Assembly (NCBI RefSeq): GCF_000427825.1
Contig: NZ_KE386593.1
Location: 281,253 to 345,252 of the forward strand
From: Thermocrispum municipale DSM 44069
Lineage (GTDB): Bacteria; Actinomycetota; Actinomycetes; Mycobacteriales; Pseudonocardiaceae
Length of the DNA stretch: 64,000 nt
Direction: 5' to 3'
Under the pieces are notes generated by a model, which worked only from the letters and a program-made list of their open reading frames with translations, searched no databases and was not told where the DNA came from. Positions 10,964 through 35,361 of this stretch are shown here, piece by piece (the first letter of the stretch is position 1; every line of letters starts with the position of its first letter). A program made the position numbers and the translations under genes.

Positions 10964-11030
10964 TCGTCCCTCTCTCCCCGGTCCACGCCCCGGTTCAACG
11001 ATTGGCGCGAAACCAGGGTGACACAGCGGA

Positions 11031-11069
11031 GGACCGGGCCTGGCGGAATCATGACGCCAGGCCCGGTCC
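11031..11069 (-). terminator. strong hairpin downstream of the secreted hydrolase gene
   Basis: GGACCGGGCCTGGCG pairs perfectly with CGCCAGGCCCGGTCC (15 bp, nine-base loop), 24 bp past the hydrolase stop. There is no U tract, as is common in high-GC actinobacteria. Confidence 0.75.
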
Positions 11070-11092
11070 GAAATCGTGATAGTGAATCCCGC

Positions 11093-17196: not shown

Positions 17197-17279
17197 ACGT
17201 CCACGCTATGGCGCATTCTTGAGCGTTCCAATACCTGAAGAGCTCATATTCATATGTGATCGTCTCGTACTATGAGCCT

Positions 17280-18176
17280 GTGGACGTGCTGAGTGACGCG
17301 ATCGCCGCGATGCGCACCGGGCGGCCGTCGTCCAATCGGCTGCGCGTGAGGTCGCCGTGGTGCTACCGGTTCGACCCGTACGACGGCGCCGGCTTCCACG
17401 TGCTGGTGCGCGGCACGGGCTGGGTCATCCCGGAGCGCGGCGAGGCGATCCCTCTGGCGAGCGGTGATGTGGTGCTGCTGCCGCGGGGAAGCGCACACAT
17501 CTTGTCCGATTCGCCGCGCGCGAACCACGCGGTTCCGTTCGACACCTCGATCAAGGACGATCCGGACGGCCAGGTCGACGTGCTGTGCGGCAAGTACCGG
17601 GTGGACCGTACGCGCATGCATCCCGTCCTCGCGGAGCTGCCCGACATCGTCCACCTGCCTGCCAGGGTCGGGCACCATCGCGAGCTGCGTTCGGCCATCG
17701 ACTTGCTCGCCACCGAGGTGACCGGCGAGCGACCAGGGCGGGAAGCCGTGATCAGCGGTCTGCTCGACCTGCTGCTGACCTACTTCGTCCGTGCGTGGCT
17801 TGCGGAGAACGACCGGGCCGGGTGGCCCCGGGCGCTGCGCGATCGAGAAGTCGCCGCCGCACTGGAAGCACTGCACGCCGAACCGGCCGCGCCCTGGCGG
17901 GTCGAGGACCTGGCCGCTCAGGTCGGACTCTCCCGCGCCACGTTGGCCCGGCGATTCACCGCTCTCACCGGGCACCCACCGATGGCGTATTTGACCTGGT
18001 GGCGAATGACGATCGCGGCGCAATTGCTCCGGACGACGGATCAACCCCTGCCGGCCATCGCCCGACAAGTCGGGTACGGCTCACCGTTCGCGTTCTCACA
18101 TGCCTTCAAGCGCCAGTTCGGTGTGACGCCTGGCCGTTATCGCGCACAAGAAGACGCTCACGCGTCAGCCGGATGA
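17280..18176 (+). CDS. AraC family transcriptional regulator (cupin_6 type)
   Basis: 298 aa from GTG 17280, chosen because homologous proteins of this type start M-D-V-L-S-D; GTG 17256 is the upstream alternative. The N-terminal cupin-like sensing domain (about 1-170) contains GTGWVIP, LASGDVVLLPRGSAH and ends in GRHRELR-type text. The C-terminal AraC domain has two HTHs: WRVEDLAAQVGLSRATLARRFTALTGHPP and LPAIARQVGYGSPFAFSHAFKRQFGVTPGRYR. Divergent from the MBL hydrolase, it likely activates or represses it. Its last 12 bp overlap the convergent TetR gene. Confidence 0.9.
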   Translation: MDVLSDAIAAMRTGRPSSNRLRVRSPWCYRFDPYDGAGFHVLVRGTGWVIPERGEAIPLASGDVVLLPRGSAHILSDSPRANHAVPFDTSIKDDPDGQVDVLCGKYRVDRTRMHPVLAELPDIVHLPARVGHHRELRSAIDLLATEVTGERPGREAVISGLLDLLLTYFVRAWLAENDRAGWPRALRDREVAAALEALHAEPAAPWRVEDLAAQVGLSRATLARRFTALTGHPPMAYLTWWRMTIAAQLLRTTDQPLPAIARQVGYGSPFAFSHAFKRQFGVTPGRYRAQEDAHASAG

Positions 18177-20387: not shown

Positions 20388-20430
20388 GTGGAGCCGAGGG
20401 GAATCGAACCCCTGACCTCTGCCTTGCAAA
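20388..20430. repeat. attL: 43-bp copy of the tRNA-Ala 3' half
   Basis: Identical to 35288-35330, covering from the anticodon loop to the 3' end of tRNA-Ala. Outside the core, GCTGGTCAG also occurs at both ends (20375-20383 and 35274-35282) with a small length difference, which suggests an older, longer identity. Left of it is host DNA. Confidence 0.93.
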
Positions 20431-20525
20431 TGCGCCGTAGTCGATCAGCTCGGCCGCATACCGCAGGTCAGCGTGTTCACTCCGCTGCCTGGACTGGCTG
20501 TCATGTATCCGGATTACTGCGTTTC

Positions 20526-22315: not shown

Positions 22316-25300
22316 TCACGCACCTGCCGAGTCGAACTCGAGCGCGTCGGCGCGTTCTGCGGCTTCCTCGGCAGCCACATCCTCGGCGTGCCACCGGGCG
22401 AGTTGCGCGGCTCGGGCCTCCTCGGCCTCGCGGGCTGCGTCCGCCGCTGCGCGCTGGGCGATCTCGGCGAGTGCCCGCTGCGCGCACTGCACTGCCTCGG
22501 CGGTCTCGTCCGCCGTCGGCACGCGCACGCCTTCGGTGACCTCGGTCGACTCCTCTTCGGCCGTGACCTCGCGAATGTCGGGCACGTTCGTCTCGGGTGC
22601 CTCGTCGATGTCGGGCTCGCCGGTGACCGCCTCGACGTCGGCGGCGCGCTCGCGGGCCACGTCGTCGAGCTCGTGCTCGGCGGTGATCTCGCGGTGCGGG
22701 TCCTCGGCCGCGTCCGCCTCGCGGTGCGCGGCGAGCCACTCCTCGGCGGTGACCGTCTCCTCGGCTGCCGGGTCCTCGTCGGCGTGCCGGGCAGTGAGCT
22801 CGGCGAGCGCCCGGTCGGCCGCCGCACGGGTGGCCGCGGTGTGCGCGAGCCATTCGCCGCGCGCCTGGTCGACGGCGCGTAGCTCCTCGGCGCGGGCCTC
22901 GAGCGTCTCGGCCAATGCGACCGACTCGGCGGCTTCCTGCTCCAGCCGCTGCCGCGCCTCGACGTCACTCGCCGCCGCTGCCTCGGCCGCGCGCAGCGTC
23001 GCGGCGCGACGGTGCTTCTCGGCGGCCTGAATCGTGCCGGCCAACTCGTCAGCGACGTACGGCGGTGCCCATGCGGCCTCGCGTTCCGCCGCGCGGACGC
23101 GGACGCGAAGCTGACCGTCGCTCATCTCGAGCTCGTCGCGGTGCGCCTCAGGCCTACCGAGCGCACGCCACGCGGTCAGCCACGACGCGTACGCCTCGAC
23201 CTGCCCCGGCTTCGGTGCCGGTCCGAGCGGCTCGGTCGCGTCGTCGTAGCCGATCAGTTCGCGGTGTGCCGCGACCGCACCGGCTCGGCGGCACCATTCG
23301 ACGATCGCATCCGGCTCCGCCGGCACCGGGCCGAAAGCCTCGATCGCCCACGGCGGCGGCTCCTCGGCGAGCTGCTGACCGAGCTCGTGCCGACGGGTGT
23401 CGGCCGACTCGGCGAGGCCGTTCAGGTACCGCTGCCACTCGGGGTCCCCGACCTGCGGCACCCGATCGGCGTAGCTGTCGCCCGTCGGGTCAAGGCGGTA
23501 GCTATTGGTGATGCGGTGGTAGATGACGTTGGTCAGCTGGCGTGCGCCACTGAGCGGCCGCTCGGTGATCGCGTCGGCGAGCACCTGCCGCGGGTCGTGC
23601 CCGGCGAGCTCGGCTCGCCGGAGAATGCGGGACAGCGTGGCGCCGCCGTCCTCGGCGGCGATCCGGGCACGCTGGTCAGCGGTGAGATCACCGGCGTCGA
23701 CCAGTTCGTCGAGCCACCTCGACGTGCGGCCGGCCGTGGCGAGCTCGACCGCGTCGGCGAGTAGCTCGGCAGGGGTGCGGATCGACTCCATCTCCTCGGC
23801 CGACTGGGTGGCCGTGGCGAGAGCGGAACGGGTGGGGTCCGCTCCCTCCAGGGCGTTCGCCAGGACGGCGGCCGGGTCACGGTGGACGGCCTCGGCGACT
23901 GTGCCGGTCGGCGCGTCCTCCGGGACCGCGAGCGTGGTGACGTGCGCGGTGTTGTTGTCGCGGCCGCGGGTCATGCCGACGTACAGCGCCTCGGCGCCGG
24001 TGTGCGGCGTGACGACGGTGTGGCTGGTGTCCACGGTCAGGCCCTGGGCGGCGTGCACGGTGGTCGCGTAGCCGAGCGTCACGTGTTTGGCCACGTAGGA
24101 CGCTGGCAGGGTCATCCGGTCGCCGAGCTGCTCGCCGTTCGGCGTGCGGCCCACGATCGGCGCGACGACCAGGCTGCCGTCCTCGCCGGTGGCGAGGACT
24201 CGGTACTGCTCGCGGTTGATCGGTCCGCGCCGGTTGCCCTGGTAACCGGCGAGGTTCCAGCCGTTCAACCGCGCCTGCACGAGATCGCCGACGCCGGCGT
24301 AGGTGCCCTGCCTGCCGAGCGCGACGCCGTGCTCGGCGACCTTGCCGAGCCTGACCAGCTCGGCGCGTAGCTGCGCGGACAGGCGAGCGGCCTGCTCGTT
24401 GGTGTCCACCAGGAGCAGCGAACGCCGCCCGGCGAGCACGTCGCCGAGCCAGGCGCGCACGGCCGACTCCTCGGCCTGCTCGCGAGCGCCGCCGTCAAGA
24501 ACGCGGCCGTTCTTGTGGTACTCGCCGAGCACGGTCTCGTCTCCGGCACGCAGGCGCAGCGACGCGGCGCGCTCCCACTCGTGGGTGAACCGCCGTGCCT
24601 CGGCGAGTTCGTAGCTGGCGCCGGTCTCGGCGAGCATCTCCATCGCGCCGCCCGCGCCGACGGCCGCCAACTGCCGGTGGTCACCGACCAGGAGCAACTT
24701 CGCACCGGCGTCCCGTACATGCTCGTGAATCGCGGCGAGGTCGGCGGTGTCGGTCATCGCGGACTCGTCGACGACCACCAAGTCGCCCGCGCGTAGCGAC
24801 CACTCCCGGTCCTCGTCGACGGCTCGGCCGTCGGCAAGGCGCTGCTGGGTCGCCAACCAGCGGGCGACGTTGCGCGCGTTCAGCCCTTCCCCAGCGAGCA
24901 CCTCGGTCGCGATCTGGCTGGTCGCCAGGCCGAATACCTTGCGGCGCTCGCCGTCCCACAGGTCCGGGTCCTGCCACGCCTTGGCGAGCGCGCCGACCAC
25001 AAAGGACTTTCCGGTACCAGCGGGTCCAACGAGGGACTCGATCCGGGCGCCGGACGTGAGCACGCCGCGTACGGCGGCGGCCTGGTCGGCGCCGAGCTCG
25101 ATCCCGCCCTCGGCGAGCTGCTCGAGGAACTCGGCCGCGCGTACCGACGGCATCGCCGCGGCGCCGCCCTGGACGGTGCTCGACGTAAGCGCGCGCTCGG
25201 TCCGCACGTGGTCCGGCGTCGCGTACAAGCGTCCGCCGGGTGCCTCGTACGCGGACCGTCCATTCGCGACACGCAAGTCGTCCGGAAGGTCGGCGTCGCC

Positions 25301-26695
25301 AGGCCGGTCGGCGTCGAGCGGCACGGCAAGCTCGAGCGCGGTGTCGGTGAGCGTGTCGAGCAGGCGCGCCATCTGTGCGCCGTCGGCAACGCCGACGTGA
25401 TCCGGCAGTGCGTCGCTGATCGCGCGCGTGAGGTCCGGCCGCGTCCAGGCGGCCTTGCGCGACTGGACGTCCGCGAGCGCAGTCTCGATCACCGCACGCG
25501 GCGACCACTCCGCGGCGGCCGGCTCTTGGCCGGCCAACTCCAGCACGCAGCGAGCGACGCCCGCCAGGCCGTCAGCCACCTCGGCGCGTAGCTCGCGGTC
25601 CCACCGTTCGAGGCGCTGCTCGACGGTCTCGCCGTCGTGGCTCTTGGCGCGGCGGGTGGCGAACGTCGCCTGGCGCTGCAGCCGGTCCAGCTCCAGCGAG
25701 TTCGGCTCGCGGCCGAACTTCGTCTCGAACGCGGCGACCAGTTCCCGCGTCCGCTTGGTGATCGCGCGGCGTCGCGAGCTGAACAGCTCCATGACCTCGG
25801 GCGGCACGCCGACGACTTCGCGCGCCTTGCCGTCCGGCCTGGTCGCGAACCGCACGCCGAGCGCGCGGGTGAGATGCTCCTCCATCGTGCGCTCGCCGAC
25901 CGCGGCGGCCGCGCCGCGGAACTTGTGGATCGCGCGTGAGTCCAGCGTGCGCCACTGCCCGTCCTCGCCCTGAACGCGATTCAAGATCGCGTTGTGGATG
26001 TGCAACTGCGGGTCGTGGTCGCGGTTGTCGTGCTGGAAGAAACTTGCGACGGTCCAGTCGTGCGCGTCGGTGTAGCGGCCGGCGGCGCCGCCGTGGTGAC
26101 CGACGCGCGAGTACCCGGCGTGCTCGGCAAGGTAGTCGATAGCCGCACGGTTCCCTGCCCAGATGGCGTCCTCGACGGCCTGGCGGTGCGCCGCCCACGC
26201 GGCGGCCGCCTCCTCGTCGCCGGCGTTCCGGGCGCGGACCTCCTGTGCCTCGAACGCGGTGTGCAGGACGGTGACCGACTTCTGGACGCTGAACGTCGCG
26301 TCCAGGAATGCGACGTTGCGGCGGGCACGCTTCCCGGCGTCCAACCGGAGCTCGGCGCGACGCTCCGGTGAGGCGTCCGGCTCAGCCTTCAGCGCGGCCT
26401 CGTACAACTCCTGTTCAGTCAGGTAGCGCCGTCCGGTGTGGCCGAGAGTGGACGCCTCGGCCCACTTGGACGGGTCCCTAAACGCCGGGTCGCGCGGATC
26501 GACGTAGTGCTCGTAGAGCGCCGTCATGTCCTGCGCGTCGACCAGCCCGCTCAGCCCGAGCGCCTCGGCGCCCCGGCCATACCACCGGCCCGGCGGCTCG
26601 CCGGCCGCCACGGCGCCGGTGTAGTAGTTCTCCCGGCCCGTAGCGACGGCGTTGATCAGGTAGTCGGCGCCGTGTCCCGTGGAGATCGTCAGCAT
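22316..26695 (-). CDS. MobF (TrwC/TraI-type) conjugative relaxase-helicase
   Basis: 1459 aa from ATG 26695 (MLTISTGHGA). The relaxase domain has the tandem catalytic tyrosines in RENYYTG (Y24, Y25) and the three-His metal site in HDNRDHDPQLHIH (H222, H232, H234). A SF1 helicase follows: Walker A GPAGTGKS (557-564), Walker B VVDESAM (641-647), then QGNRRGP, GYATTVHAAQGLTV and YVGMTRGRDNN motifs. The C-terminal 350 residues are Ala/Glu/Arg-rich coiled coil. It should nick one strand at oriT, remain bound and unwind the DNA for transfer. It is the last gene of the coupled transfer operon; the start follows the 61-aa gene stop with a short overlap. Confidence 0.95.
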   Translation of the reverse strand: MLTISTGHGADYLINAVATGRENYYTGAVAAGEPPGRWYGRGAEALGLSGLVDAQDMTALYEHYVDPRDPAFRDPSKWAEASTLGHTGRRYLTEQELYEAALKAEPDASPERRAELRLDAGKRARRNVAFLDATFSVQKSVTVLHTAFEAQEVRARNAGDEEAAAAWAAHRQAVEDAIWAGNRAAIDYLAEHAGYSRVGHHGGAAGRYTDAHDWTVASFFQHDNRDHDPQLHIHNAILNRVQGEDGQWRTLDSRAIHKFRGAAAAVGERTMEEHLTRALGVRFATRPDGKAREVVGVPPEVMELFSSRRRAITKRTRELVAAFETKFGREPNSLELDRLQRQATFATRRAKSHDGETVEQRLERWDRELRAEVADGLAGVARCVLELAGQEPAAAEWSPRAVIETALADVQSRKAAWTRPDLTRAISDALPDHVGVADGAQMARLLDTLTDTALELAVPLDADRPGDADLPDDLRVANGRSAYEAPGGRLYATPDHVRTERALTSSTVQGGAAAMPSVRAAEFLEQLAEGGIELGADQAAAVRGVLTSGARIESLVGPAGTGKSFVVGALAKAWQDPDLWDGERRKVFGLATSQIATEVLAGEGLNARNVARWLATQQRLADGRAVDEDREWSLRAGDLVVVDESAMTDTADLAAIHEHVRDAGAKLLLVGDHRQLAAVGAGGAMEMLAETGASYELAEARRFTHEWERAASLRLRAGDETVLGEYHKNGRVLDGGAREQAEESAVRAWLGDVLAGRRSLLLVDTNEQAARLSAQLRAELVRLGKVAEHGVALGRQGTYAGVGDLVQARLNGWNLAGYQGNRRGPINREQYRVLATGEDGSLVVAPIVGRTPNGEQLGDRMTLPASYVAKHVTLGYATTVHAAQGLTVDTSHTVVTPHTGAEALYVGMTRGRDNNTAHVTTLAVPEDAPTGTVAEAVHRDPAAVLANALEGADPTRSALATATQSAEEMESIRTPAELLADAVELATAGRTSRWLDELVDAGDLTADQRARIAAEDGGATLSRILRRAELAGHDPRQVLADAITERPLSGARQLTNVIYHRITNSYRLDPTGDSYADRVPQVGDPEWQRYLNGLAESADTRRHELGQQLAEEPPPWAIEAFGPVPAEPDAIVEWCRRAGAVAAHRELIGYDDATEPLGPAPKPGQVEAYASWLTAWRALGRPEAHRDELEMSDGQLRVRVRAAEREAAWAPPYVADELAGTIQAAEKHRRAATLRAAEAAAASDVEARQRLEQEAAESVALAETLEARAEELRAVDQARGEWLAHTAATRAAADRALAELTARHADEDPAAEETVTAEEWLAAHREADAAEDPHREITAEHELDDVARERAADVEAVTGEPDIDEAPETNVPDIREVTAEEESTEVTEGVRVPTADETAEAVQCAQRALAEIAQRAAADAAREAEEARAAQLARWHAEDVAAEEAAERADALEFDSAGA

Positions 26696-26874
26696 CCCGA
26701 CCACCGGCCGGAGCTCAGCGACCGGCGGCCGGTGGTCGCGAACGCGGCCACCGGAACCGACCGCAAGATCGTGATGCCTAGGTGTGTCCTTCCTTCATTG
26801 ATCTCAAGCTGTTGGGATCGGTAGCTGAGAGTGGTGCTGGTGATGCTGGATGCGGGGTAGCTGAGGCTGGTCAT
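26689..26874 (-). CDS. 61-aa protein between DUF2637 and relaxase genes
   Basis: 61 aa. The ATG overlaps the DUF2637 stop as ATGA, and its own TGA (26689-26691) overlaps the relaxase start. Such double coupling supports a real gene. The product is Ser/Thr-rich (MTSLSYPASSITSTTLSYRS), then LEINEGRTHLGITILR and a basic Gly/Ser tail. No family or motif recognised. It may instead serve only to carry ribosomes to the relaxase start. Confidence 0.55.
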   Translation of the reverse strand: MTSLSYPASSITSTTLSYRSQQLEINEGRTHLGITILRSVPVAAFATTGRRSLSSGRWSGC

Positions 26875-27692
26875 GGCTGCGCCTTGGGCTGGTCGTGATC
26901 AGAGACGAGGTGTAGCGGGGTGGGCTGGCTGCGCAGGGCCTTGAGCACTTCTCCTGCGGTGCCTCGGGACACGTCGGCAAGGGACATGAGCTGGCTGACG
27001 GTCGGCAGGCTGCTGTGCTGGGCGGCGTACTTCCTGGCGGCACGGTCGGCGCGGTCACGCGCCGGGGACTCCACCTGCCGAGCGGACGGCAACGCCGGTC
27101 GCTGCTGAACACGCGCCGCTGAACGCTGCCCGGCCTCCTCTGCCGGACGTGCCTCCGGCTGTACGGGCGCGGGCTGTTCAGCAGGACGCTGTACAGGCTC
27201 GCGCTGAACGGCGTCGGACGGCTGAACAGTCGCGGACGGCTGGACGTCCGGACGGCCGGTGCTCGGCTCCGCCGGTGGCTGGTCGGCCGCGATCAGGTAG
27301 AGCAGGTGCGCCACGATGGCGGCCGCCAGCGCGGGCCACGCCCCGATCCCGAACCGCAACCAGGGCGGCGCGGACGCCATACCCTCGGCGAGGTAACTCG
27401 CCTGCGCGAGCCCGGACAGACCGGCGGCGAGCACCACCACTGCCCAGGCGTAGCGCCGAGCACTGCCAGTGAGCCGGGCCGTGGCCGCGTAGGCCACCAG
27501 GGCGAGGCCGTCGGTGATCAGCGGGTAGAGCGCGGCGATCACGGACGGCACGGCGGCCGCGCGGGCGACCTCGTACAGGCCGTGCGCGGTGGCGACTGCC
27601 GCGCCGACGGCCACCAGCAGGCCGGGTAGCCAGAGTGCGCGGCGAGACGCCTGCGGCCGCTCGCCGGACGTGGGAGACGGACGGTGCATCAT
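26871..27692 (-). CDS. DUF2637 membrane protein with C-terminal helix-turn-helix-like segment
   Basis: 273 aa from ATG 27692 (TGATG overlap with the GGDEF-like gene; GTG 27695 also possible; GGGGAGG upstream). Four hydrophobic segments in residues 18-135 match the DUF2637 family, which is common in actinobacterial plasmids and includes Spd-like proteins thought to help intramycelial spread. A long Pro/Gln/Glu-rich linker (about 140-200) follows. The C-terminus has a winged-helix-like stretch LPTVSQLMSLADVSRGTAGEVLKALR, as in DNA-binding or replication proteins. I infer a membrane-DNA link in transfer. Confidence 0.85.
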   Translation of the reverse strand: MMHRPSPTSGERPQASRRALWLPGLLVAVGAAVATAHGLYEVARAAAVPSVIAALYPLITDGLALVAYAATARLTGSARRYAWAVVVLAAGLSGLAQASYLAEGMASAPPWLRFGIGAWPALAAAIVAHLLYLIAADQPPAEPSTGRPDVQPSATVQPSDAVQREPVQRPAEQPAPVQPEARPAEEAGQRSAARVQQRPALPSARQVESPARDRADRAARKYAAQHSSLPTVSQLMSLADVSRGTAGEVLKALRSQPTPLHLVSDHDQPKAQP

Positions 27693-27979
27693 CACGCGAC
27701 CTCCCCTCGCTGGTCACGCAAGCGACCGGCGGGCGTGGCGGCTGCGATGCGGCTGAGCCGGTGCCCGAACGTGTCGTTGACCTGCTTGAACCCGTCGAGG
27801 TCGAGCAGCAGCACACCGACGGAGGCACGCCAGCAGGCGCGGCGGGCTCGAGCCTCGAGCAGCTCACGACCCGGCAGGCCGGTGAGGCGGTCGTGCGATG
27901 CGCGCCACCACCAGTACCGAGCCGTGGCGCTGGCGGCGGGCCATGCGATGGCGAGGGTGATCGTGAGGACCGTGGTCAT
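27692..27979 (-). CDS. truncated GGDEF-domain protein
   Basis: 95 aa, with ATGA overlap from the DUF4913 gene and an overlap onto the next start. After a short hydrophobic N-terminus comes a recognisable GGDEF beginning: HDRLTGLPGRELLEARARR, then VLLLDLDGFKQVNDTFGHRL. It stops before the GG(D/E)EF catalytic loop, so it cannot make cyclic-di-GMP, although the nucleotide/metal-binding Asp of DLDGF is present. No frameshift that would restore the remainder was seen in the overlapping downstream gene. It could bind a nucleotide or act as a dimerization module. Confidence 0.75.
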   Translation of the reverse strand: MTTVLTITLAIAWPAASATARYWWWRASHDRLTGLPGRELLEARARRACWRASVGVLLLDLDGFKQVNDTFGHRLSRIAAATPAGRLRDQRGEVA

Positions 27980-28629
27980 CGCCGGACACCACCCAGGCGA
28001 CGGCGCGGCGTCGCGGCCGCGAACTGCTCATCGGTGGGCTCCGGGGCCGGGGCCTCACGGTCGCCCGCCCACCACGCGACGATGGGGTCAACGCTGTCCG
28101 CCAGTGGCACCGTGGTCGCCGCCCGCGGCGGGGTGTGGTTCTCCAGCGAGCAGTTACCCGCGCTGGCCTTGATCCGCCGGACCACGCCGGGCCGGTACCG
28201 GTCGTGCCAGTCACCGACCAGCGCGGCCGACGCGGCCTCGCCCTGGTAGGCGACGAGCCACGCCTCCATCAGCCAGAGCAGTTCCTCGATCACGTCGGGG
28301 TGCCATGCCCAGCAGTCCGGGAGGGCGGCGGCCGCGTCGGCGTACCGGAGAAAGATCGCGTCCATCCAGGCGACGAGCTCGTCCAGCACGCCCCGGACGT
28401 GCTCGGCGTCCTTCGGCGCCTGCAGCCAGGACGGCACGGCGGGCGTGTCCGGGTTCTTCCGCAGGTTGGCGAGTTCCTCGGCCAACGTGGCGACCTGACC
28501 GGCCAACTTGGCCAGTTGACCGGGCACCTTGTGCACCGGCTCGATCCGGCGGCGGAGCGCATCGACCTCGGCGGCGAGCCCGGCCACCGCTGCGACGGTC
28601 GCGTACGTCTCCTTCTCGTCGTGGCTCAT
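27976..28629 (-). CDS. DUF4913 domain protein
   Basis: 217 aa. ATGA overlaps both at its start (with the coupling protein gene) and its end. The N-terminal part (about 1-70) is coiled coil (VDALRRRIEPV, LAKLAGQVATLAEELANL). The DUF4913 core is at about 90-175: LDELVAWMDAIFLRYADAAAALPDCWAWHPDVIEELLWLMEAWLVAYQG with conserved Trp/His. The tail is Pro/Ala-rich and disordered. The family is found in actinobacterial mobile elements; the role is unknown, perhaps a transfer accessory factor. Confidence 0.82.
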   Translation of the reverse strand: MSHDEKETYATVAAVAGLAAEVDALRRRIEPVHKVPGQLAKLAGQVATLAEELANLRKNPDTPAVPSWLQAPKDAEHVRGVLDELVAWMDAIFLRYADAAAALPDCWAWHPDVIEELLWLMEAWLVAYQGEAASAALVGDWHDRYRPGVVRRIKASAGNCSLENHTPPRAATTVPLADSVDPIVAWWAGDREAPAPEPTDEQFAAATPRRRLGGVRR

Positions 28630-30416
28630 CGGGTGGCCTCCTCAGCGGTGCGGGTGCGGCGCACGGCCGCGTGGGCCGCGCGGACCTGCGCGGGCAGGGA
28701 TGCGAACCGCGGGTGTGCCTCGGCGAGACGGTCGGCGGCGCGCTCGACCAGGCGGTGCCGGGTGCGCTGCCAGCGCTCGAGGCGCTCGGCCCACCGGCGG
28801 GCGCGCGCCAGTGCGCGGACGTCCCGGCGCTTCCAGGCCATCTGCACGCGGCCGACGGCGGCAGGCATGTTGCGGCGGATGATCAGCACCCGGCGGGGTG
28901 GCAGCTGCGCGATCTGCGCGGGCGTCAGGACGGGCACGCGGTGCGTGCTGACCGAGTGCAGGTCGCCGTCCTCATCCCAGGTCGGCACCTCCTCGTACCG
29001 CTCGCCGGTCAGCGAGGAGTACGCGGCGAGGTCGTCCGGGTCGCGCGTGGCGCCGAAGATCATCAGCGTCGCGGCGTTGTTCAGGATCGTCCCGACGCCG
29101 GTGTCGCCCCAACGCTGCTTTAGCTGCGAGCGCGACTGCGCGGCGATGTGGATGGTCACGCCCCGGCCGCCCATGTCGGAGGTCCAGTTGTCCAGCGGGA
29201 CCGGGCAGATCAGCGCGGCCTCGTCGAGCGCGAGGGTCAAGGGCGGGTCCAACCGGCCGCCGGGCATGTGCGCGGCGAGCCTGCGCGCCTCGCGGGCGAT
29301 GTGGCCAGTTAGCGCGGTCACCAGCGGCGCGACCTGCGAGTCCTCGGCGCCGAGCATGTAGACGGTGCCGCGGCGCTCGATCAGCTCCTCGACGTCGAAC
29401 GTGCCACCTGTCGCGGCCGCTGCGGCCGTCGAGTCGGTGAGCCAGCCGAGCGCGGGCATGATCGTCGCGCAGATCGACGAGCGGGTCCGCTCGTTGGTGT
29501 TCAGGAACTGCAAGGCGTCCTGCTCGTACGCCGGTTCGGCCGACCGGCGCAAGAACCGCTGCACCTCGGCGGCCGCACCGTCCGGGTCGGCAACCCACGC
29601 CAGCACGTCACGCATCGAGCCCTCGCCGAGCGCGGCGGCGTGCAGCAGCGACGCGAGCACGCGCCGGGCCTGCCCCGACCAGAACTCCATGTCGCCGCCC
29701 TTGCCGGGCGCGGATACCCCGGACAGCAGGTCGGCGGCACGCGCGGCGGCGGTCGCGGGCTCCGTGCAACCCGACAGCGGGTCGAACGTCACGGTCGAGT
29801 CGATCCCGCCGAGCCCGCTCGGGTTGAACACCCCGACCGGTCCCCGCTCGGCGCGGCACGGCCCGGTGAGCTCGAGCAGGTCGGTACGCGTGCTGGTGGC
29901 GATCACCGCACCGGGGGCGTCCAGGATGCGGCCCGCGAGTTCGCCGGTCTTGCCGGTGCGCGGTCCACCGATGCGCAGGGTCACGTCCTCGACCGGCGAC
30001 CAGATGCGGAACAGGCCGACGCGGGCGAGTGGGGTCGCGAGCTCGCGGATCGGCACGCGCAGCCGCTGCCACCACGGCAGGTCACGCACGCTCGGCCGCA
30101 GCACGGCGGCCTTTCGGCGCACCGCCAGGCCGGATGCGACACGCAGGATCGTCCACTGTGACGCGACGCCGTCGTTCCGGCGAACGCGGCGCGACCAGCG
30201 GTTCACCGTGCCTGCCGAGCCGGTGCGGCGACGCGCGACGGCAAGCAGCGGACCGACGACCAGCAGGACGCCCACGATCATCAGCCAGGGCCAGTACACC
30301 CGGCCCGGCGTCTCCGCTGGCATCCGGTGCATCAACCAGCCGAGCCCGGCAACGCCGAGACCGACGAGCACGGTCTTGCGCACAACGCGCGACTTCTTGT
30401 TCCGGGAGGTGTTCAT
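28626..30416 (-). CDS. VirD4/TraG-type coupling protein
   Basis: 596 aa from ATG 30416, overlapping the HTH gene stop as ATGA. Two N-terminal membrane segments (about 13-29 and 42-60) precede an ATPase domain with Walker A GPRTGKT (151-157), Walker B LTLALDEAAL (about 365-375) and the TraM-recognition-like helical region. The typical hexameric coupling ATPase brings the relaxase-DNA complex to a secretion channel. No other type IV secretion gene is nearby, so it may use a resident machine or function as a minimal channel. Position between the HTH and DUF4913 genes supports one transfer operon. Confidence 0.9.
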   Translation of the reverse strand: MNTSRNKKSRVVRKTVLVGLGVAGLGWLMHRMPAETPGRVYWPWLMIVGVLLVVGPLLAVARRRTGSAGTVNRWSRRVRRNDGVASQWTILRVASGLAVRRKAAVLRPSVRDLPWWQRLRVPIRELATPLARVGLFRIWSPVEDVTLRIGGPRTGKTGELAGRILDAPGAVIATSTRTDLLELTGPCRAERGPVGVFNPSGLGGIDSTVTFDPLSGCTEPATAAARAADLLSGVSAPGKGGDMEFWSGQARRVLASLLHAAALGEGSMRDVLAWVADPDGAAAEVQRFLRRSAEPAYEQDALQFLNTNERTRSSICATIMPALGWLTDSTAAAAATGGTFDVEELIERRGTVYMLGAEDSQVAPLVTALTGHIAREARRLAAHMPGGRLDPPLTLALDEAALICPVPLDNWTSDMGGRGVTIHIAAQSRSQLKQRWGDTGVGTILNNAATLMIFGATRDPDDLAAYSSLTGERYEEVPTWDEDGDLHSVSTHRVPVLTPAQIAQLPPRRVLIIRRNMPAAVGRVQMAWKRRDVRALARARRWAERLERWQRTRHRLVERAADRLAEAHPRFASLPAQVRAAHAAVRRTRTAEEATR

Positions 30417-30784
30417 GCCGCACCCCCGGACAGCGCGGCCCGCTCGGTCCACTCGGCGAGGTCGAGGCTGTTCGCCGCGGCCGCGGCATCGTCGAGTAGC
30501 CGCTCGACCACCTTCGCGGGCACGACGTACCGGCCCTGCGCGCGACCGATCCGCATACGGACGGCCGGGAACGAGTCGGCCTGGATTAGCCGGTAGAGGT
30601 ACTCCTGCGAGATGCTCAGCAGCGCGGCCGCCTCGGGCACCGTGTAGGTCGGCACTCCCTCGGCACGCTTCCGGATCGCGTTCCGCAGCGCGGCGTCACG
30701 CATGATCTCGCGGGTCTGCCGGCCTCCGACGCGAGCCGAGCGCTCGGCGTCCACTTCGGCCGGTTCGGTGATGTTGGTACGCAT
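30413..30784 (-). CDS. MerR-like/HTH_17 DNA-binding protein, first gene of transfer operon
   Basis: 123 aa from ATG 30784 with GGAG upstream. A helix-turn-helix of the excisionase/MerR-like type is at about residues 45-90: YTVPEAAALLSISQEYLYRLIQADSFPAVRMRIGRAQGRYVVP. N-terminal part is charged, C-terminal ends in a helical Asp/Ala-rich tail. It overlaps the coupling protein gene. A structured leader and a palindromic operator lie upstream (30800-31020). I infer control of the transfer operon, perhaps with excision. Confidence 0.82.
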   Translation of the reverse strand: MRTNITEPAEVDAERSARVGGRQTREIMRDAALRNAIRKRAEGVPTYTVPEAAALLSISQEYLYRLIQADSFPAVRMRIGRAQGRYVVPAKVVERLLDDAAAAANSLDLAEWTERAALSGGAA

Positions 30785-30832
30785 CTGGGACTCCACTCCG
30801 CAATCTGTTGCGCGCCAAGGGATGCAGCCCTT
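30781..30832 (-). promoter_or_regulatory. structured leader of the transfer operon (copy 1)
   Basis: The transcript should contain a hairpin (AAGGGCTGCATCCCTT, 30817-30832), then the ribosome-site segment GTGGAGTCCCAGATGC that contains the start codon. The same loop and the same 16-base segment recur at 33645-33703, with a longer stem. Translational control is inferred. Confidence 0.55.
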
Positions 30833-30897
30833 ACCGCGCATCGGTCAGGTCAACCGTGGTGCGGACGTCGTGTCCTTTTCAGACAGTCAGTCCGTGG

Positions 30898-31022
30898 CTG
30901 ACAACTCCAAGACTCCAGCCAGCGGAGGCACTGTCGGGGGACAATCCGTCACACCCACACAATACAAAGTGAGTTTGTATTGTGCCAGTCGCTGGCGAAG
31001 TGTCGAGGTGAGGAGTTGTCAG
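30898..31022. promoter_or_regulatory. nested inverted repeats, operator region between xis and transfer operon
   Basis: CACAATACAAA pairs perfectly with TTTGTATTGTG (30958-30984, five-base spacer). It lies inside a second inverted repeat CTGACAACTCC/GGAGTTGTCAG (30898-30908 and 31012-31022). AT content is higher than nearby. Expected targets are the element's HTH proteins (XRE-Nudix-like, excisionase or the HTH at 30413). Confidence 0.7.
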
Positions 31023-31231
31023 CGCCAGTAGCCGCTACCGGGCCTGCGCTCGTGCCACGCGATGATGGTCTGCGGCCGCCACAGCTGCGTTCGGCCGATC
31101 TTGTGGTCGGGTGCCGGCATCTGACCGCGGTTGCGGTACGCGCTGATCGTCGCGACACGAACTCCCAGGTAGGCCGCTACGTCGGACGTCGTCCACCACT
31201 CGGCGTCGGGGCTGGGCTTCGTCGCGGTCAT
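31019..31231 (-). CDS. excisionase-like HTH protein
   Basis: 70 aa from ATG 31231 with GGAGCG upstream, overlapping the epimerase stop as ATGA. HTH_17 fold: EWWTTSDVAAYLGVRVATISAYRNRGQMPAPDHKIGRTQLWRPQTIIAWHERRPG. Small proteins of this kind bend DNA at att sites and steer Tyr integrases to excision. Last gene of the XRE-Nudix-epimerase-excisionase operon, so excision would be tied to that regulator. Confidence 0.85.
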   Translation of the reverse strand: MTATKPSPDAEWWTTSDVAAYLGVRVATISAYRNRGQMPAPDHKIGRTQLWRPQTIIAWHERRPGSGYWR

Positions 31232-32136
31232 GCTCGCTCCAGCGCCGACCAGGCGTCCGCGACTATCTGCTCTAGCGACGAGCGGGTCGGCTTCCAGCCG
31301 AGTTCCGCGATCGCGCGAGACGGGTCGGCAATCAGCGCGGGGGGTTCGGCCGCGGCCGGCCGGTGCTCGACCTCGATGTGACGTCCTGTCACACGCTCGG
31401 CGGCGGCCACGACGTCGAGCACGCTGGAGCCTCGGCCGCTGCCGACGTTGAACCGCCTCCACGTGCCCGGCGGTGGGGTGTGCGCGCAGGCGGCCGCGAA
31501 CGCGGCGGCGGCATCGTCCACATGCAGGAGATCACGGACGGCGGACCCGTCGCCGTTGACCGGGAAGCGCGGCGCCTGTCCAGCCGCGGCGGCAAGTGCG
31601 CGCGGGACCATCCGGGTCTCGTCGGGGTCGTGGCCGCCTGCCACGTTGAACAGGCGGATGATGGCCGCGCCGATCTTCCCCGCGTCGGCGTGCGACTCGA
31701 TGGCGAGCTCGGCCGCCCTCTTGCTCGCTGCGTACGGGTGCGGGATGTCGTCGGGCAGGTCCTCGTGCATCGGCTGCTCGGGCGGCGAGCCGTAGATCGC
31801 GCCCGTCGACGCGAACACGATGCGGCGGACGTCGGCGCGGAGCATGGCGGCGAGGAGGTTCAGCGTGCCGCAGACGTTGACCTGGAAGTACCGCTCCAGC
31901 TGCTCCCACGACTCGCGAGCGCGGGTCAGCCCGGCAAGGTGACACACGACGTCGATGCCGCGCAGCGGCTCGGCGAGTGTCGCGGGCTCGGTGAGGTCGC
32001 CGACGTACGTCGCGGTGTCCTCGAGCTCGGCTGCCTGGCTGTGCAGCAGGGCCACCGGCGTGTGCCCGGCGGCGCGCAGGGCGGCGACCGTCGCGCGGCC
32101 GAGATAGCCGCCGGCACCGGTGACGAGAACATTCAC
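31228..32136 (-). CDS. NAD-dependent sugar epimerase/dehydratase-like SDR
   Basis: 302 aa. Extended SDR with the Rossmann motif MNVLVTGAGGYLGRATV (1-17), the FASTGAIYG strand, catalytic YAASK (in HPYAASKRAAE, about residues 135-145), and GNGxAVRDLLHVDDAA-like sugar-binding segment. GalE/UDP-glucose-4-epimerase relatives act on nucleotide sugars. It is the middle gene of a three-gene operon with a regulator and excisionase, which is unusual for a sugar enzyme; possible roles are surface modification (exclusion) or making or removing a signalling nucleotide. Confidence 0.88.
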   Translation of the reverse strand: MNVLVTGAGGYLGRATVAALRAAGHTPVALLHSQAAELEDTATYVGDLTEPATLAEPLRGIDVVCHLAGLTRARESWEQLERYFQVNVCGTLNLLAAMLRADVRRIVFASTGAIYGSPPEQPMHEDLPDDIPHPYAASKRAAELAIESHADAGKIGAAIIRLFNVAGGHDPDETRMVPRALAAAAGQAPRFPVNGDGSAVRDLLHVDDAAAAFAAACAHTPPPGTWRRFNVGSGRGSSVLDVVAAAERVTGRHIEVEHRPAAAEPPALIADPSRAIAELGWKPTRSSLEQIVADAWSALERA

Positions 32137-32151
32137 GACCGTCGCTCCTAC

Positions 32152-33549
32152 TCACCCGAGAATGAGATCGCGGTACTTCCACGTGAGTGCGATACACGCG
32201 GCCGCCGCGCTGGCGAGCGGCTCCTCGGTCTGAGCCTTGCGCACGTTGCGTGCATTCCACGCGATGCCGACCGAACCGTCCTCGGACGGGTACAGGTCGC
32301 CCTCGGCGTTGCGGGCCACCATGCGGCCGAAAGCCGCGTCGAACACGTCGGCGTCGATCACGTTGACCGTAAGAATCTCACCGGCCGGAACGAGCGGGTC
32401 GATCCCGACCCCGAGACACCACGGGCGCACTTTGCCGTGGCGGCGGCCCTCGTTGAGGGTGCGGAACGGCTCCTCGGTGCCGTAGTCGATCGGCGCGCCG
32501 CTGCTGCCGTCGTGCTCCGGGTTCCCGAGCATCTCCTCGGAGTACTCGCGCAGGATGCTCCGCCAGAGGTCGAAGTCGCCGGCCATGTTCCACGGCGCGA
32601 TGCCGGACGGCTGGAACACGCCGGCCGGGATGACGTGCGAGGTTCCGCCCGCGACGGCGACGTGGGCCTTGCCTCGCCGGTGCAGGAAGAACGAATCGCC
32701 TTCCGGGCCGCGGCGGATGGTCAGCGTGTTGATGCTGGGCAGCACGGTCCGGCGTGCGAGGTTGAACAGGTCGCCGACGTGCTGGCGGAACGGTAGGTCG
32801 TCGAGCGTCACCTTGTCGCCGTCGGCGTTCATCCACGCGTCGGCGAGCTCGTGCGCCATCACCTCGCACACGTCGATCATGTCGAAGTACGTGGTGTAGC
32901 CGAACCGCATTCGGCCGCCGGCCGAGTCCCACTGCAGGTCAAGTAGGCGGTAGGAGCCGCGGTTGTCGAACAGCGTCGGCCGCGCGAGCGCCCGGATCGC
33001 CTGGCTGTAGCGGTTGTACGGCCGCCCGTCGACGGCCTGGCCGCGGTAGGGCGCCGCCTCCGGGTCGGTCGCGGTGATCGGCGGCGGTGCGGTCTCGCCC
33101 GCCCAAGAGAGCTCGATCGCGCTCAGGTCGACCGGCTCGGCCGGCATCCACTCCGGCACGGTGATGCAGGTAGTGCCCTCGATACGGATGGGGTCCCAGT
33201 ACAGGTCCGCGGCGACCTTCGACAGGGCGTGCCGATTCTTGTTCAGCGTCTGCCGGACGGCCTTCCAGCGCTCGTTCTTTTCGCTCGACGCGCCTTCGTC
33301 GGCCGCGGCCTCGTCGGGCTCGTCCATGAGGCCGAACCGCGAGGGCGGCACGTCCATCGCCGCGGCGAACCGCCGCAGCTGCGTGACGTCGTGGCACCGG
33401 CGAGCGCCAGAGATGTACTTCGACACGAGCGTCCGGTCGATACCCAGGATCGACGCCATCTCGGCGTGCGTGGACACACCGTGCGCGCGCATATAGGTCT
33501 GGATCACGCTGCCCAGGTTCGAACCGTCCCGCGGACGCTCAGTGGCCAT
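32152..33549 (-). CDS. XRE-type regulator fused to a Nudix-like domain
   Basis: 465 aa from ATG 33549 with GGGAGGAGC upstream. N-terminal XRE HTH at about 11-72 (YMRAHGVSTHAEMASILGIDRTLVSKYISGARR). The large C-terminal part contains a degenerate Nudix-like box: HVIPAGVFQPSG then LWRSILREYSEEMLGN (REYSEEMLG at 334-342); the upstream Gly/Glu of the classical box are missing. Trp/Tyr-rich segments before it may bind ligand. The pSAM2 immunity factor Pif also has a Nudix motif, but this HTH fusion is a different arrangement. I infer a ligand-responsive switch of integration and transfer. Confidence 0.78.
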   Translation of the reverse strand: MATERPRDGSNLGSVIQTYMRAHGVSTHAEMASILGIDRTLVSKYISGARRCHDVTQLRRFAAAMDVPPSRFGLMDEPDEAAADEGASSEKNERWKAVRQTLNKNRHALSKVAADLYWDPIRIEGTTCITVPEWMPAEPVDLSAIELSWAGETAPPPITATDPEAAPYRGQAVDGRPYNRYSQAIRALARPTLFDNRGSYRLLDLQWDSAGGRMRFGYTTYFDMIDVCEVMAHELADAWMNADGDKVTLDDLPFRQHVGDLFNLARRTVLPSINTLTIRRGPEGDSFFLHRRGKAHVAVAGGTSHVIPAGVFQPSGIAPWNMAGDFDLWRSILREYSEEMLGNPEHDGSSGAPIDYGTEEPFRTLNEGRRHGKVRPWCLGVGIDPLVPAGEILTVNVIDADVFDAAFGRMVARNAEGDLYPSEDGSVGIAWNARNVRKAQTEEPLASAAAACIALTWKYRDLILG

Positions 33550-33597: not shown

Positions 33598-33648
33598 TCA
33601 GGGCGACCAGTGCGCCCGGTCCGTCGGCGGCATACGCTGAGATCGCAT
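33598..33648 (-). CDS. 16-residue leader ORF upstream of the XRE-Nudix gene
   Basis: ATG 33648 follows the shared GTGGAGTCCCAG ribosome-site segment and opens a 16-codon frame (MRSQRMPPTDRAHWSP) that stops 48 bp before the regulator start. It has the same start context as the first gene of the transfer operon. A regulatory leader peptide is inferred; the peptide itself has no similarity I recognise. Confidence 0.4.
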   Translation of the reverse strand: MRSQRMPPTDRAHWSP

Positions 33649-33703
33649 CTGGGACTCCACCTGATGCACCCGCCCAGGACGGGGATGCAGCCCCGTCCTG
33701 GGC
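33645..33703 (-). promoter_or_regulatory. structured leader of the XRE-Nudix operon (copy 2)
   Basis: A perfect 13-bp stem GCCCAGGACGGGG/CCCCGTCCTGGGC (33672-33703) with the same CTGCAT loop (transcript sense) as copy 1, followed by GTGGAGTCCCAGATGC. The 308-bp space 33550-33857 also contains this leader peptide and no other gene. Confidence 0.6.
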
Positions 33704-33857
33704 CACTTCACCCGAAGAGGAAAAACCTACGGTCATCCCTCGACGCTGGACAACGACGTCAGAGTCGTTCTTGCGGTCGGGGTTTTGTCACTAACCTGAG
33801 ATGTTCCTCAATCAATGTGTCTTCCTGACATGCCCCAGCTGTGATCATCCGTCCGTG

Positions 33858-35201
33858 TTAGCACTCGTCGCTCACTGCCCTCGGAGGCCGCTGCATGCGG
33901 CTGCCGAGGATGTCGGCGGCGCGGCGGTCGGCTTCGCCGACCCAGGCGGCGTAGACGCGGAGAGTGGTGGCGCCTCCGCCGGCGTGGCCGAGACGGCCGG
34001 CCACCGTGCGGAGGTCGACGCCGGCGGTGAGCAGCTCGGTCGCGGCGTAGTGCCGTAAGGCGTGTAGGTGGGTGTCGATGCCCAGCTCGGCGCACATACG
34101 GGCGTAGCGGTGTGTGACACCACTTGGATCACACGGCCGGTCGTACGTCGGCTGGTAGGAGAACATAAACGCCTCGTCGCTCGGCTCAACGCCGAGCTGC
34201 TGCACCGCGTCCTCGTATCGCGCGCGGTGCTCCTGCAGAACCTCGACGGTCGCCGGGTCGAGCGACACTCGGCGCATACGGTGCGTCTTGGTGTCCTTCT
34301 CGAACGATCGACCGGCGGCGCGAACATAGTTGCGGCGCACGGTGATGTACCCGGCGGCGAGGTCCACGTCGCTCCAGCGCAGCGCGAGCACCTCGGCGCG
34401 CCTCATGCCGGTCACCATGACCAGCCAAACCAGCGTTCCCCACGCCTCGTCCTGACCCCACGCCGCGTCGATGATCCGGGCTGCCTGCTCGACTGTCGGC
34501 GGGGTCGGCTGCGGCGCTGGCTGCCGCGGCTTGCGCGCTACCTCGGCCGGGTTCGAATCGATCCACTCCCACCGGACCGCGGCCGCGAACGTGCCGCTGA
34601 GCATGAAGTGAATCTTCGAGATCGTCGCGTTGCCCAGTGGCCTGCACTCGTGCGGACGGCACTCCAAGACCTTGCAGCCGGCCTCGGCACAGTCGTGCGG
34701 CGGATAGCCACCAGCGGGCGGTCGGCCTGGCGGTCGGCGGTGCCGGACCTCGCGGCACTCGTGCTCGCCGTCGACGCGGTGCTCGATGAACGGCCTACCG
34801 TCGCACCGCGCCCGGCACCGGCGAAGCTCGGCGTAGAACTGCTCGAGCACGCGGGCTGAGACCTTGCCCACCCGCTCCTTGCCGAGCGCTGGCTTGATGT
34901 ACCGGCGGGCGTACATCTCGTACGCCTCGCGGGTCGACTCCTCGACCTCCAGCGTCCTGAGCCACTCATCTACGGCGACGCTCAGCGTCGCGTTCGTCTT
35001 GGCGTGCCGCTCGGCGTCCACCTGCGCGAGCAGCCGCGTGAGGATGCGCTCGGCCTCCTTCTCGTCGGTCGTCGACTCGCGGAGGTACAGCCTCTTACCG
35101 GTCAGCGGATCGGTGCCGGCGTAGACCTTCACGCGCAGGGAGTTGCCACGGCGCTCGATCGTGCCGCGGTTACGGGACCGTCCCTGGGTGCGTCTTGCCA
35201 C
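33858..35201 (-). CDS. tyrosine recombinase/integrase with Cys-rich insertion
   Basis: 447 aa from GTG 35201. N-terminal arm-binding part (about 8-55: TIERRGNSLRVKVYAGTDPLTGKRLYL), core-binding domain from 70, and catalytic domain with R267 (GMRRAE), H380xxR383 (HLHALRHYAATEL), H406 (GHAGGG) and nucleophile Y417 (LRVYAAW). Between about 129 and 187 the core-binding domain has an insertion with seven Cys and several His, which may bind zinc. It integrates the element into tRNA-Ala; its start is 87 bp from the attR core and it faces inward. Confidence 0.93.
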   Translation of the reverse strand: MARRTQGRSRNRGTIERRGNSLRVKVYAGTDPLTGKRLYLRESTTDEKEAERILTRLLAQVDAERHAKTNATLSVAVDEWLRTLEVEESTREAYEMYARRYIKPALGKERVGKVSARVLEQFYAELRRCRARCDGRPFIEHRVDGEHECREVRHRRPPGRPPAGGYPPHDCAEAGCKVLECRPHECRPLGNATISKIHFMLSGTFAAAVRWEWIDSNPAEVARKPRQPAPQPTPPTVEQAARIIDAAWGQDEAWGTLVWLVMVTGMRRAEVLALRWSDVDLAAGYITVRRNYVRAAGRSFEKDTKTHRMRRVSLDPATVEVLQEHRARYEDAVQQLGVEPSDEAFMFSYQPTYDRPCDPSGVTHRYARMCAELGIDTHLHALRHYAATELLTAGVDLRTVAGRLGHAGGGATTLRVYAAWVGEADRRAADILGSRMQRPPRAVSDEC

Positions 35202-35217
35202 GGCTAACAGGATACCC

Positions 35218-35237
35218 GCACCCACCGTGGGTCCCAT
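35218..35237. repeat. 20-bp subterminal direct repeat (right copy)
   Basis: GCACCCACCGTGGGTCCCAT, identical to 20526-20545, 50 bp from the right core repeat, just upstream of the integrase start. Also a hairpin ACCAGC/GCTGGT at 35262-35279 adjoins the core. Role at att inferred. Confidence 0.7.
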
Positions 35238-35287
35238 CACGTCGAGCCTGGGGACTCGTGCACCAGCATTTGCGCTGGTCAGAACTT

Positions 35288-35330
35288 GTGGAGCCGAGGG
35301 GAATCGAACCCCTGACCTCTGCCTTGCAAA
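35288..35330. repeat. attR: 43-bp core within the tRNA-Ala gene
   Basis: Exact copy of 20388-20430. The tRNA 5' half (35331-35361) is host DNA, so integration has preserved a complete tRNA gene. Confidence 0.93.
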
Positions 35331-35361
35331 AGCAGCGCTCTACCAATTGAGCTACGGCCCC
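35289..35361 (-). tRNA. alaT: tRNA-Ala (anticodon TGC)
   Basis: 73 nt. Acceptor stem GGGGCCG pairs with CGGCTCC, discriminator A; D-arm GCTCAATTGGTAGAGC; anticodon loop CTTTTGCAAG gives TGC; T-arm GGGGTTCGATTCCCCT. CCA is not encoded. Follows tRNA-Ile and DLW-39 as in related genomes; it carries the integration site. Confidence 0.97.

Follow-up and report, generated by a model that had tools for sequence, protein, structure and literature searches.

The sequence analysed here, referred to as the window, is a 64,000-nucleotide stretch of Thermocrispum municipale DSM 44069, located on contig C1 of a 4.5-Mb genome and carrying an integrative element. Within positions 31019-33549, three genes of this element lie on the minus strand: P0001, which combines an XRE helix-turn-helix (HTH) with a Nudix-fold domain resembling human NUDT22; P0002, a GalE-like epimerase of nucleoside diphosphate (NDP) sugars; and P0003, a small HTH protein. 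P0001 and P0002 are separated by 15 nt, and P0002 and P0003 overlap by 4 nt (ATGA). The original prediction, made from the letters of the sequence, regarded the three genes as an operon tying a ligand-sensing regulator and a sugar-nucleotide enzyme to excision of the element. The three genes are present and touch one another or nearly so, and their spacing suggests co-transcription. P0001 and P0002 constitute a conserved module with P0003 outside it, and the earlier interpretation as a whole is partly supported.

Searched alone against Pfam, P0001 matched HTH_3 weakly (E 0.002, below the cutoff), and NCBIfam gave no match. A profile of 22 relatives reached a solved XRE regulator with an E-value of 2e-6, identifying a Cro/C1-type HTH, and P0001 matched the PHROG 2328 repressor family at 1.5e-6. 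The Nudix part was missed by every Pfam, NCBIfam, and PDB sequence profile, and the structure alone reveals it. The full-length AlphaFold model, computed from the alignment of the 22 relatives, had a mean predicted local distance difference test score (pLDDT) of 86. The sole Foldseek matches of this model in the PDB at E 0.001 or below were four NUDT22 entries. VIA-align superimposed it on NUDT22 (5lor_A) with a Z-score of 20.6 and a root-mean-square deviation (rmsd) of 3.3 for 256 residues, spanning residues -2 to 287 of the 290-residue chain and including the N-terminal part before the core; the next-best match was isopentenyl-diphosphate isomerase (Z 12.7). A domain-only AlphaFold model from 98 sequences (pLDDT 92, predicted template modelling score 0.92) repeated this result with a Z-score of 20.4 for NUDT22 and 13.3 for the next protein. 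The 98-row alignment was obtained from 118 profile hits, reduced to 97 by coverage, redundancy, and reading frame, and then joined by locus L031. As the top structural matches of the domain are Nudix-fold proteins, the postulated regulator with a Nudix-fold domain was borne out, by profile for the XRE HTH and by predicted structure for the Nudix fold.

The Nudix box of P0001 had been described as degenerate, and sensing rather than hydrolysis had been deduced from it. The first statement holds for one half of the motif: the full consensus GX5EX7REUXEEXGU is absent because a G-x14-D arrangement replaces the GX5E half. The RExxEE half is intact, with R334, E335, E338, and E339 invariant in 98 of 98 aligned domains, as are G310, F312, Q313, D325, W329, E345, Y356, N414, E416, and G417. 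The deduction does not follow, as RExxEE is kept throughout and NUDT22, which according to a passage in PMC5688067 "lacks a conventional NUDIX box", is an active enzyme. Text from PMC10101856 describes the hydrolysis of uridine diphosphate (UDP)-glucose by NUDT22 to glucose-1-phosphate and uridine monophosphate, and the title of the structure paper names NUDT22 a UDP-glucose/galactose hydrolase. Second NUDT22-like copies found beside some P0001 relatives keep RExxEE and, judged by their length, have no HTH, which suggests that the domain also works as an enzyme.

P0002 matched Pfam Epimerase with an E-value of 1.6e-50 (172 bits, cutoff 20.9), which places it among the epimerases and dehydratases dependent on nicotinamide adenine dinucleotide (NAD) of the short-chain dehydrogenase/reductase (SDR) superfamily. 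Its score against the GalE model TIGR01179 was 193.7 bits, below the cutoff of 262.3. Solved relatives at E 1e-20 or better comprised 38 distinct sequences, the top 27 of which are named UDP-glucose/UDP-galactose 4-epimerases; the match to 8wxk had an E-value of 3e-43. The nucleotide-sugar enzyme proposed for P0002 was confirmed by these matches. Two independent lines point to UDP-hexoses because the fold of P0001 is NUDT22-like and P0002 is GalE-like. UDP-hexose is a better guess for the ligand than the ADP-ribose or NAD named earlier. We also considered ADP-ribose or NAD sensing on the model of NrtR and rejected it, as NrtR and ADP-ribose hydrolases matched the structure at about half the Z-score of NUDT22.

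The association of the two genes was followed through a scan of GTDB genomes, in which we found 308 relatives of P0001 and analysed the best 80, so that the counts lean to close relatives; L090 and L091 overlap on a single contig, and a number of the contigs are short. A P0002-type epimerase adjoins the P0001 relative in 43 of these 80 loci, 42 by script plus L064, where a truncated copy precedes. A scan of raw open reading frames (ORFs) added L084 to the epimerase-paired group. In two of the 80 loci the P0001 relative escaped the gene caller. This simple caller overlooked the P0001 relatives of L031, L122, and L123 and the epimerase of L084. Among the 44 pairs measured with it, 37 have a gap of -4 to 23 nt and the other seven one of 33 to 818 nt. 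When the first 30 loci around P0001 relatives were sampled from the order regardless of P0002 (1.5-kb flanks), nine of them, counting the window, held a P0002 relative. The three-gene order proposed originally is accordingly found in part: the P0001-P0002 adjacency recurs, and P0003 does not, as described below.

The pairwise distances of P0001 and P0002 across 44 pairs were correlated with a Mantel r of 0.91, a value reached in none of 2000 permutations, and r was 0.75 for the 846 comparisons with a distance above 0.25. A tree of 69 epimerases gathered 45 of the 46 rows labelled as paired into one group with a support of 83/99, together with seven GalE-like rows on a long branch and two unpaired rows; the 46th paired row, L130_12, is a distant protein. 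P0002 relatives of 40-50% identity also exist in the family without P0001. Judged by the distance correlation, the tree, and the unpaired epimerase loci, the pair is old and mostly stable, with neither gene exclusive to it.

Marker profiles made for this work (TraB/FtsK, RRQRJ-type, spd-type, TraG, relaxase, or integrase) divided the 43 paired loci, with L064 counted by hand, into 21 with markers of actinomycete integrative and conjugative elements (AICEs) or of mobilization and 22 without. Twelve of the 22 come from Frankia or Pseudofrankia; they have neighbours in common and no transfer gene by these profiles, and their pairs look vertically inherited at one chromosomal place. In L072-L094 (Frankia, Pseudofrankia) the pair lies near genes for an NrtR-type Nudix regulator, nicotinate phosphoribosyltransferase, and a branched-chain amino acid transporter. 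With regard to ADP-ribose or NAD sensing, we treated the NrtR-type and nicotinate phosphoribosyltransferase genes as neighbourhood only.

Several further arrangements were observed around the pair. In L126 and L131, the end of the integrase gene (8202-9953 and 8100-9953, respectively) touches the P0001 relative, and the L126 integrase has a GntR domain behind its integrase domain. A small canonical MutT/Nudix gene (L074, 9442-9864) lies divergently beside the pair in Pseudonocardia elements. The same-genus genome G263 carries another copy of the pair elsewhere, on contig C10 (L007/L036/L089), its epimerase apparently split into two overlapping frames.

Relatives of P0001 at E 1e-5 or better occur in 32 of 298 genomes of the order. 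The host itself has a second NUDT22-like gene near the end of contig C13 (L184, 502-1803) with no epimerase beside it. Nine Streptomyces/Kitasatospora-type relatives (L053-L057, L059, L061-L063, about 9800-11440), when read from an upstream start, show an N-terminal zinc-ribbon-like stretch, CxxCG...CxPC, before the XRE domain. A phage origin was rejected, as none of 50,697 phage records matched P0001, and so was a plasmid origin, with relatives in three of 72,556 plasmid records. One of these, L187 (plasmid of Streptomyces sp. NA02950), has two adjacent regulator-type genes; L185, from a plasmid of the alphaproteobacterium Ruegeria, encodes a distant relative (27.5%). In the viral collection, the alignment search found four loci and P0001 alone found none. 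Each of these loci (L132-L135) has its NUDT22-like gene on a contig of between 97 and 173 kb, and L135 has the epimerase too.

The element that houses the three genes (Table 1) is delimited by two att repeats spaced 14,900 bp apart, giving a size of about 14.9 kb. In the same-genus genome G263, the tRNA-Ala gene carries 43 bp of the att sequence once, and no element is present there. When the 3.4-kb left flank was compared with this site by blastn, the att part alone matched; a gene like 17256-18176 of the window adjoins the G263 tRNA. With an integrase beside the tRNA gene, an att repeat, and an empty site in a relative, the integrative element postulated originally could be affirmed as one inserted in a tRNA gene. 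No FtsK/TraB-type translocase was found among the element proteins, the nine larger of which had other matches or none, the other ORFs being of at most 134 residues. The element is not a typical AICE because no such translocase was seen and a MobF relaxase and a TraG-type coupling protein are present instead, and it looks like an integrative mobilizable element. A partial GGDEF (diguanylate cyclase) protein (27692-27979) is encoded between the coupling protein and the relaxase, with relatives in 10 of the 107 loci around P0001 relatives. For the second HTH_17 gene, an ATG start at 30784 preceded by GGAG is as likely as the GTG start of the tabulated frame.

Table 1. Features of the integrative element, listed by window position (aa, amino acids)
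Feature	Coordinates	Strand	Evidence or remark
attR, far-end copy of the 46-bp att direct repeat	20388..20433		98% identical to 35288-35333
MobF family relaxase/helicase	22316..26704	-	NCBIfam MobF 183 bits, above cutoff
Probable membrane protein, backbone	26871..27692	-	weak DUF7937/DUF2637 matches
95-aa backbone protein, first third of GGDEF	27692..27979	-	Pfam GGDEF 7.6e-11, profile positions 1-53 of 161
217-aa backbone protein, no assigned role	27976..28629	-	relatives in backbone loci
VirD4/TraG-type coupling protein	28626..30416	-	1e-40 match in 46 of 296 genomes, host included
Second HTH_17 protein, element backbone	30413..30796	-	Pfam HTH_17 6.5e-9; PHROG 66 1.1e-6
P0003, small HTH_17/MerR-like DNA-binding protein, possible excisionase	31019..31231	-	70 aa
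P0002, GalE-like NDP-sugar epimerase (SDR)	31228..32136	-	302 aa, GTG start
P0001, XRE HTH plus NUDT22-like Nudix-fold domain	32152..33549	-	465 aa
NUDT22-like domain of P0001, residues 118-465	32155..33198	-	VIA-align to 5lor_A
RExxEE of the Nudix helix, P0001 residues 334-339	32533..32550	-	invariant in the aligned domains
XRE HTH of P0001, residues 12-72	33334..33516	-	profile matches 9sf2, C.AhdI, SinR, and others; model helices
Tyrosine integrase, adjoins attL	33858..35240	-	Pfam Phage_integrase 1.7e-21
attL, 3' part of tRNA-Ala	35288..35333		direct repeat
tRNA-Ala(TGC), integration target	35288..35361	-	Rfam tRNA 74 bits

Two similar leaders were noticed on the minus strand of the element, leader A (33644..33704) upstream of P0001 and leader B (30780..30840) upstream of the genes for the HTH_17 and coupling proteins. 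Each has GGGCTGCATCCC within a hairpin, the stem letters differing between the two, and an identical GTGGAGTCCCAGATGCG follows 21-22 nt on, which is possibly a ribosome site plus ATG. Hairpin A out-folded all except one of 200 shuffled sequences and hairpin B all except six of 200. Rfam gave no match at the leaders. A widespread control element was rejected, as the exact pattern occurred in this genome only among 298 genomes; the one further instance, in slightly shortened form, falls within a predicted coding gene of a viral contig. We leave the leader pair out of the mechanism discussed below.

What related elements carry in the place of the pair was surveyed through the coupling protein, which makes the choice of loci independent of P0001. 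Matches at 1e-40 were found in 46 of 296 genomes, the host included. Besides the window, 14 places were at least 55% identical; 12 were fetched, G188:C6 corresponds to L034, and G020:C84 was left out. L256 (49% identical) was fetched and not counted, L255 ends at a contig end with no visible slot, and L074 and L078 (Pseudonocardia, backbone and pair) as well as L126 (the same backbone with two NUDT22-like genes), having been found through P0001, were likewise not counted. All 12 visible slots, upstream of the HTH_17 and coupling-protein genes, hold an enzyme gene above its Pfam cutoff. L034 contains the pair itself, an epimerase with an XRE-NUDT22-like protein. L244, which has the same tRNA-Ala behind gyrA and an 85% identical integrase, carries a HAD enzyme with a GntR regulator above cutoff; L250 an APH-type phosphotransferase with an HTH_26 regulator above cutoff and also a TPR protein; and L251 a flavoprotein with an HTH_31 regulator above cutoff. 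PP2C in L245, L246, and L247 and an enzyme dependent on pyridoxal phosphate (PLP) in L253 are each accompanied by a neighbour with a weak HTH/sigma-region-4 match (E below 0.001). Canonical NUDIX hydrolases occupy four of the 12 slots: in L248 and L252 the neighbour has a marginal HTH_3 match (E about 0.02), in L249 a weak TPR match, and in L254 DUF5919. Among the 11 newly fetched loci the slot regulator was above cutoff in three, weak in four, marginal in two, and not found in two, and three slot proteins compared with solved structures gave no HTH. Slots may hold further genes, such as the one for a DUF7662 protein in L248. On the far side of the slot, eight of the 11 show the integrase; in L249, L251, and L254 it was not among the listed genes. 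The pair in the window is one filling of a variable slot because backbone relatives carry other enzyme genes there.

P0003 has a different distribution. It matched PHROG 597, "DNA binding protein", at 1e-20, PHROG 66, "excisionase", at 4e-8, and the excisionase model TIGR01764 with 14.5 bits, below the cutoff of 28.8. The HTH_17/MerR-like DNA-binding nature of the called "excisionase" is therefore sound, and excisionase is one possible name for it, the curated cutoff having been missed. P0003 is also similar to MAD1, which is the small HTH component of the defence system MADS (PADLOC mad1, 1e-7; 23.6 bits in NCBIfam, where 80 are needed). Matches to P0003 at 1e-4 occur in 52 of 296 genomes of the order. 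A three-gene unit was rejected, since none of the 107 loci around P0001 relatives, some of them overlapping, has a P0003 relative, so that the proposed tie of the cassette to excision would concern this one element. We consider it quite improbable that a ligand-sensing regulator controls excision through P0003 as a three-gene switch, even though P0003 overlaps P0002, follows the integrase on the same strand, and has weak excisionase matches. No P0003 relative was found in the 13 backbone loci either, and 12 stretches around P0003 relatives (47-74% identical) contained no P0001 or P0002 relative and a window-type integrase in only two (L217, L219). The HTH_17 gene of the backbone is instead the one at 30413-30796, matched in seven of 13 backbone loci (E 1e-3), which appears by sequence to be the better candidate for an excisionase or regulator. 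P0003 is an element-specific extra.

A variable slot beside the integrase, with unrelated genes in relatives, might also house defence against phages or plasmids, in which UDP-sugars would be depleted or altered on infection, growth would stop, and the XRE domain would provide control. The likeness of P0003 to MAD1, the P0001 relatives on the four large viral-collection contigs, and the Streptomyces plasmid (L187), where a gene for a Pycsar-type effector lies about 7 kb away from the relative of P0001, are consistent with this. PADLOC, on the other hand, offered no model for P0002 and matched the HTH part of P0001 only at E 0.03 and 0.04, in an analysis in which the neighbours were not systematically searched. 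We regard defence as a long shot.

We give about an even chance to the reading that P0001-P0002 is a UDP-hexose-handling cassette, most likely a metabolite-tuned repressor or immunity module of the element. This reading builds on the observed gene order, the conservation of the pair, the predicted fold, the conserved acidic residues, and the slot, from which we infer a ligand, a catalytic activity, a DNA target, and an effect on mobility or exclusion. P0001 would bind DNA via its XRE domain. The NUDT22-like domain would bind, and probably hydrolyse, a UDP-sugar (UDP-glucose or UDP-galactose) or a close relative, and P0002 would interconvert UDP-sugars and so set the level of the ligand. Placed in the slot that separates the integrase from the transfer genes, the cassette would most likely serve the element as such a metabolite-tuned module. 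As Frankia keeps the pair fixed in its chromosomes too, a role in mobility is no more than plausible.

A number of observations weigh against this reading. The domain is linked to NUDT22 solely through its predicted fold, from which no substrate can be read; the 98-row domain profile matched no PDB chain up to E 10, and none of the 98 domain members matched Pfam NUDIX. In 12 of the 80 best loci a second NUDT22-like gene replaces the epimerase, and in 23 neither type of partner was called. Shared host history contributes to the Mantel correlation as well, and the support of 83/99 for the paired epimerase group is not high. The paired label changes five times on the epimerase tree, at least three of the changes being forced by well-supported branches, and partners have therefore been gained or lost more than once. 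Of 15 loci with close epimerases, each examined over 9-13 kb, L169 includes a NUDT22-like gene and the other 14 do not. By the integrase profile used, only three of 84 other loci (L061, L126, L131) have an integrase on the strand of P0001 and no more than 2 kb upstream of it, and the HTH match search found no regulator in the slots of L249 and L254. Alignments of the regions upstream of three groups of relatives, whose start codons are uncertain, revealed no convincing operator. The chromosomal pair of Frankia speaks against a role confined to mobility.

Some of the same observations favour metabolic cargo, in which the two enzymes would remodel UDP-hexose pools or cell-surface sugars, resulting in surface exclusion, a changed phage receptor, or sugar use, and the XRE domain would merely autoregulate. 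Two enzyme-like proteins of one pathway, RExxEE in every aligned domain including the second copies apparently devoid of an HTH, the replacement of the epimerase by such copies, and the shared chromosomal place of the 12 Frankia/Pseudofrankia loci would fit this explanation. However, no third family recurs beyond the AICE-type or Frankia-specific neighbours among the partly annotated neighbour clusters, and the slots of backbone relatives mostly couple an enzyme with a regulator. Metabolic cargo is a real, if unlikely, possibility.

The reading as a metabolite-tuned module gives a concrete first ligand to test, since the evidence on each protein leads independently to the same small molecules. 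If true, it would also mean that bacteria have a protein family with the fold of NUDT22. A literature search of titles and the beginnings of abstracts, most subscription papers lying outside it, turned up no description of a NUDT22-type protein from bacteria or of the pair. The variable slot suggests that more metabolite-linked cassettes could be collected. One might even imagine that actinomycete integrative elements have, in a single slot next to the integrase, interchangeable cassettes of a regulator plus an enzyme, each keyed to a different small molecule, with the present one responding through its XRE-NUDT22-like protein to a UDP-hexose level set by its epimerase and deciding on excision, transfer, or exclusion of the same element, and Pif of pSAM2 as another member; we find this generalization rather doubtful.

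Among known systems, human NUDT22 (5lor, 5lou, 5lf9) is the closest in structure, the fold of P0001 covering nearly the whole chain (Z 20, 256 residues, rmsd 3.3-3.4), and both proteins have an unconventional Nudix box, as far as NUDT22 is characterized in the text cited above. The likeness is by fold alone, with 15% identity and no link by sequence profiles, and P0001 adds the XRE domain. NrtR and AraR also combine a Nudix-fold sensor with a DNA-binding domain and match in structure with Z-scores of about 10.5, so that NUDT22 scores about twice as high; their winged helix, recognized by Pfam, follows the Nudix domain, whereas the XRE domain of P0001 precedes it. Pif of pSAM2, a conjugal immunity factor preventing transfer between cells that have the same element, is a small Nudix protein not known to carry an XRE domain. 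Like P0001 it belongs to an actinomycete integrative element, and the earlier comparison with the regulator and Nudix genes of such elements was well chosen. In the passages of PMC3218068 considered here, AICEs often bear Nudix genes, and the mechanism of Pif-type Nudix conjugal immunity is stated to be unknown. The mdp-nud-xre cluster of Frankia AICEs, Sco5349, pMEA100, and pSE211, described in the same passages, likewise places an XRE regulator beside a Nudix gene, but as separate genes with a metal-dependent phosphohydrolase, whereas the window has one fused NUDT22-type protein with an epimerase. The HTH-Nudix gene of Streptomyces ICE01 has been suggested to be cI-like, with data not shown there (PMC9513070); compared by description, it differs in that the passage mentions neither an epimerase nor NUDT22 and the word "epimerase" does not occur in the main text. 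GalE shares with P0002 its best solved relatives, although P0002 scores below the GalE cutoff and is placed on a different branch from the GalE-like rows that other genomes contributed. The cassette is a new variant among the HTH-Nudix regulators.

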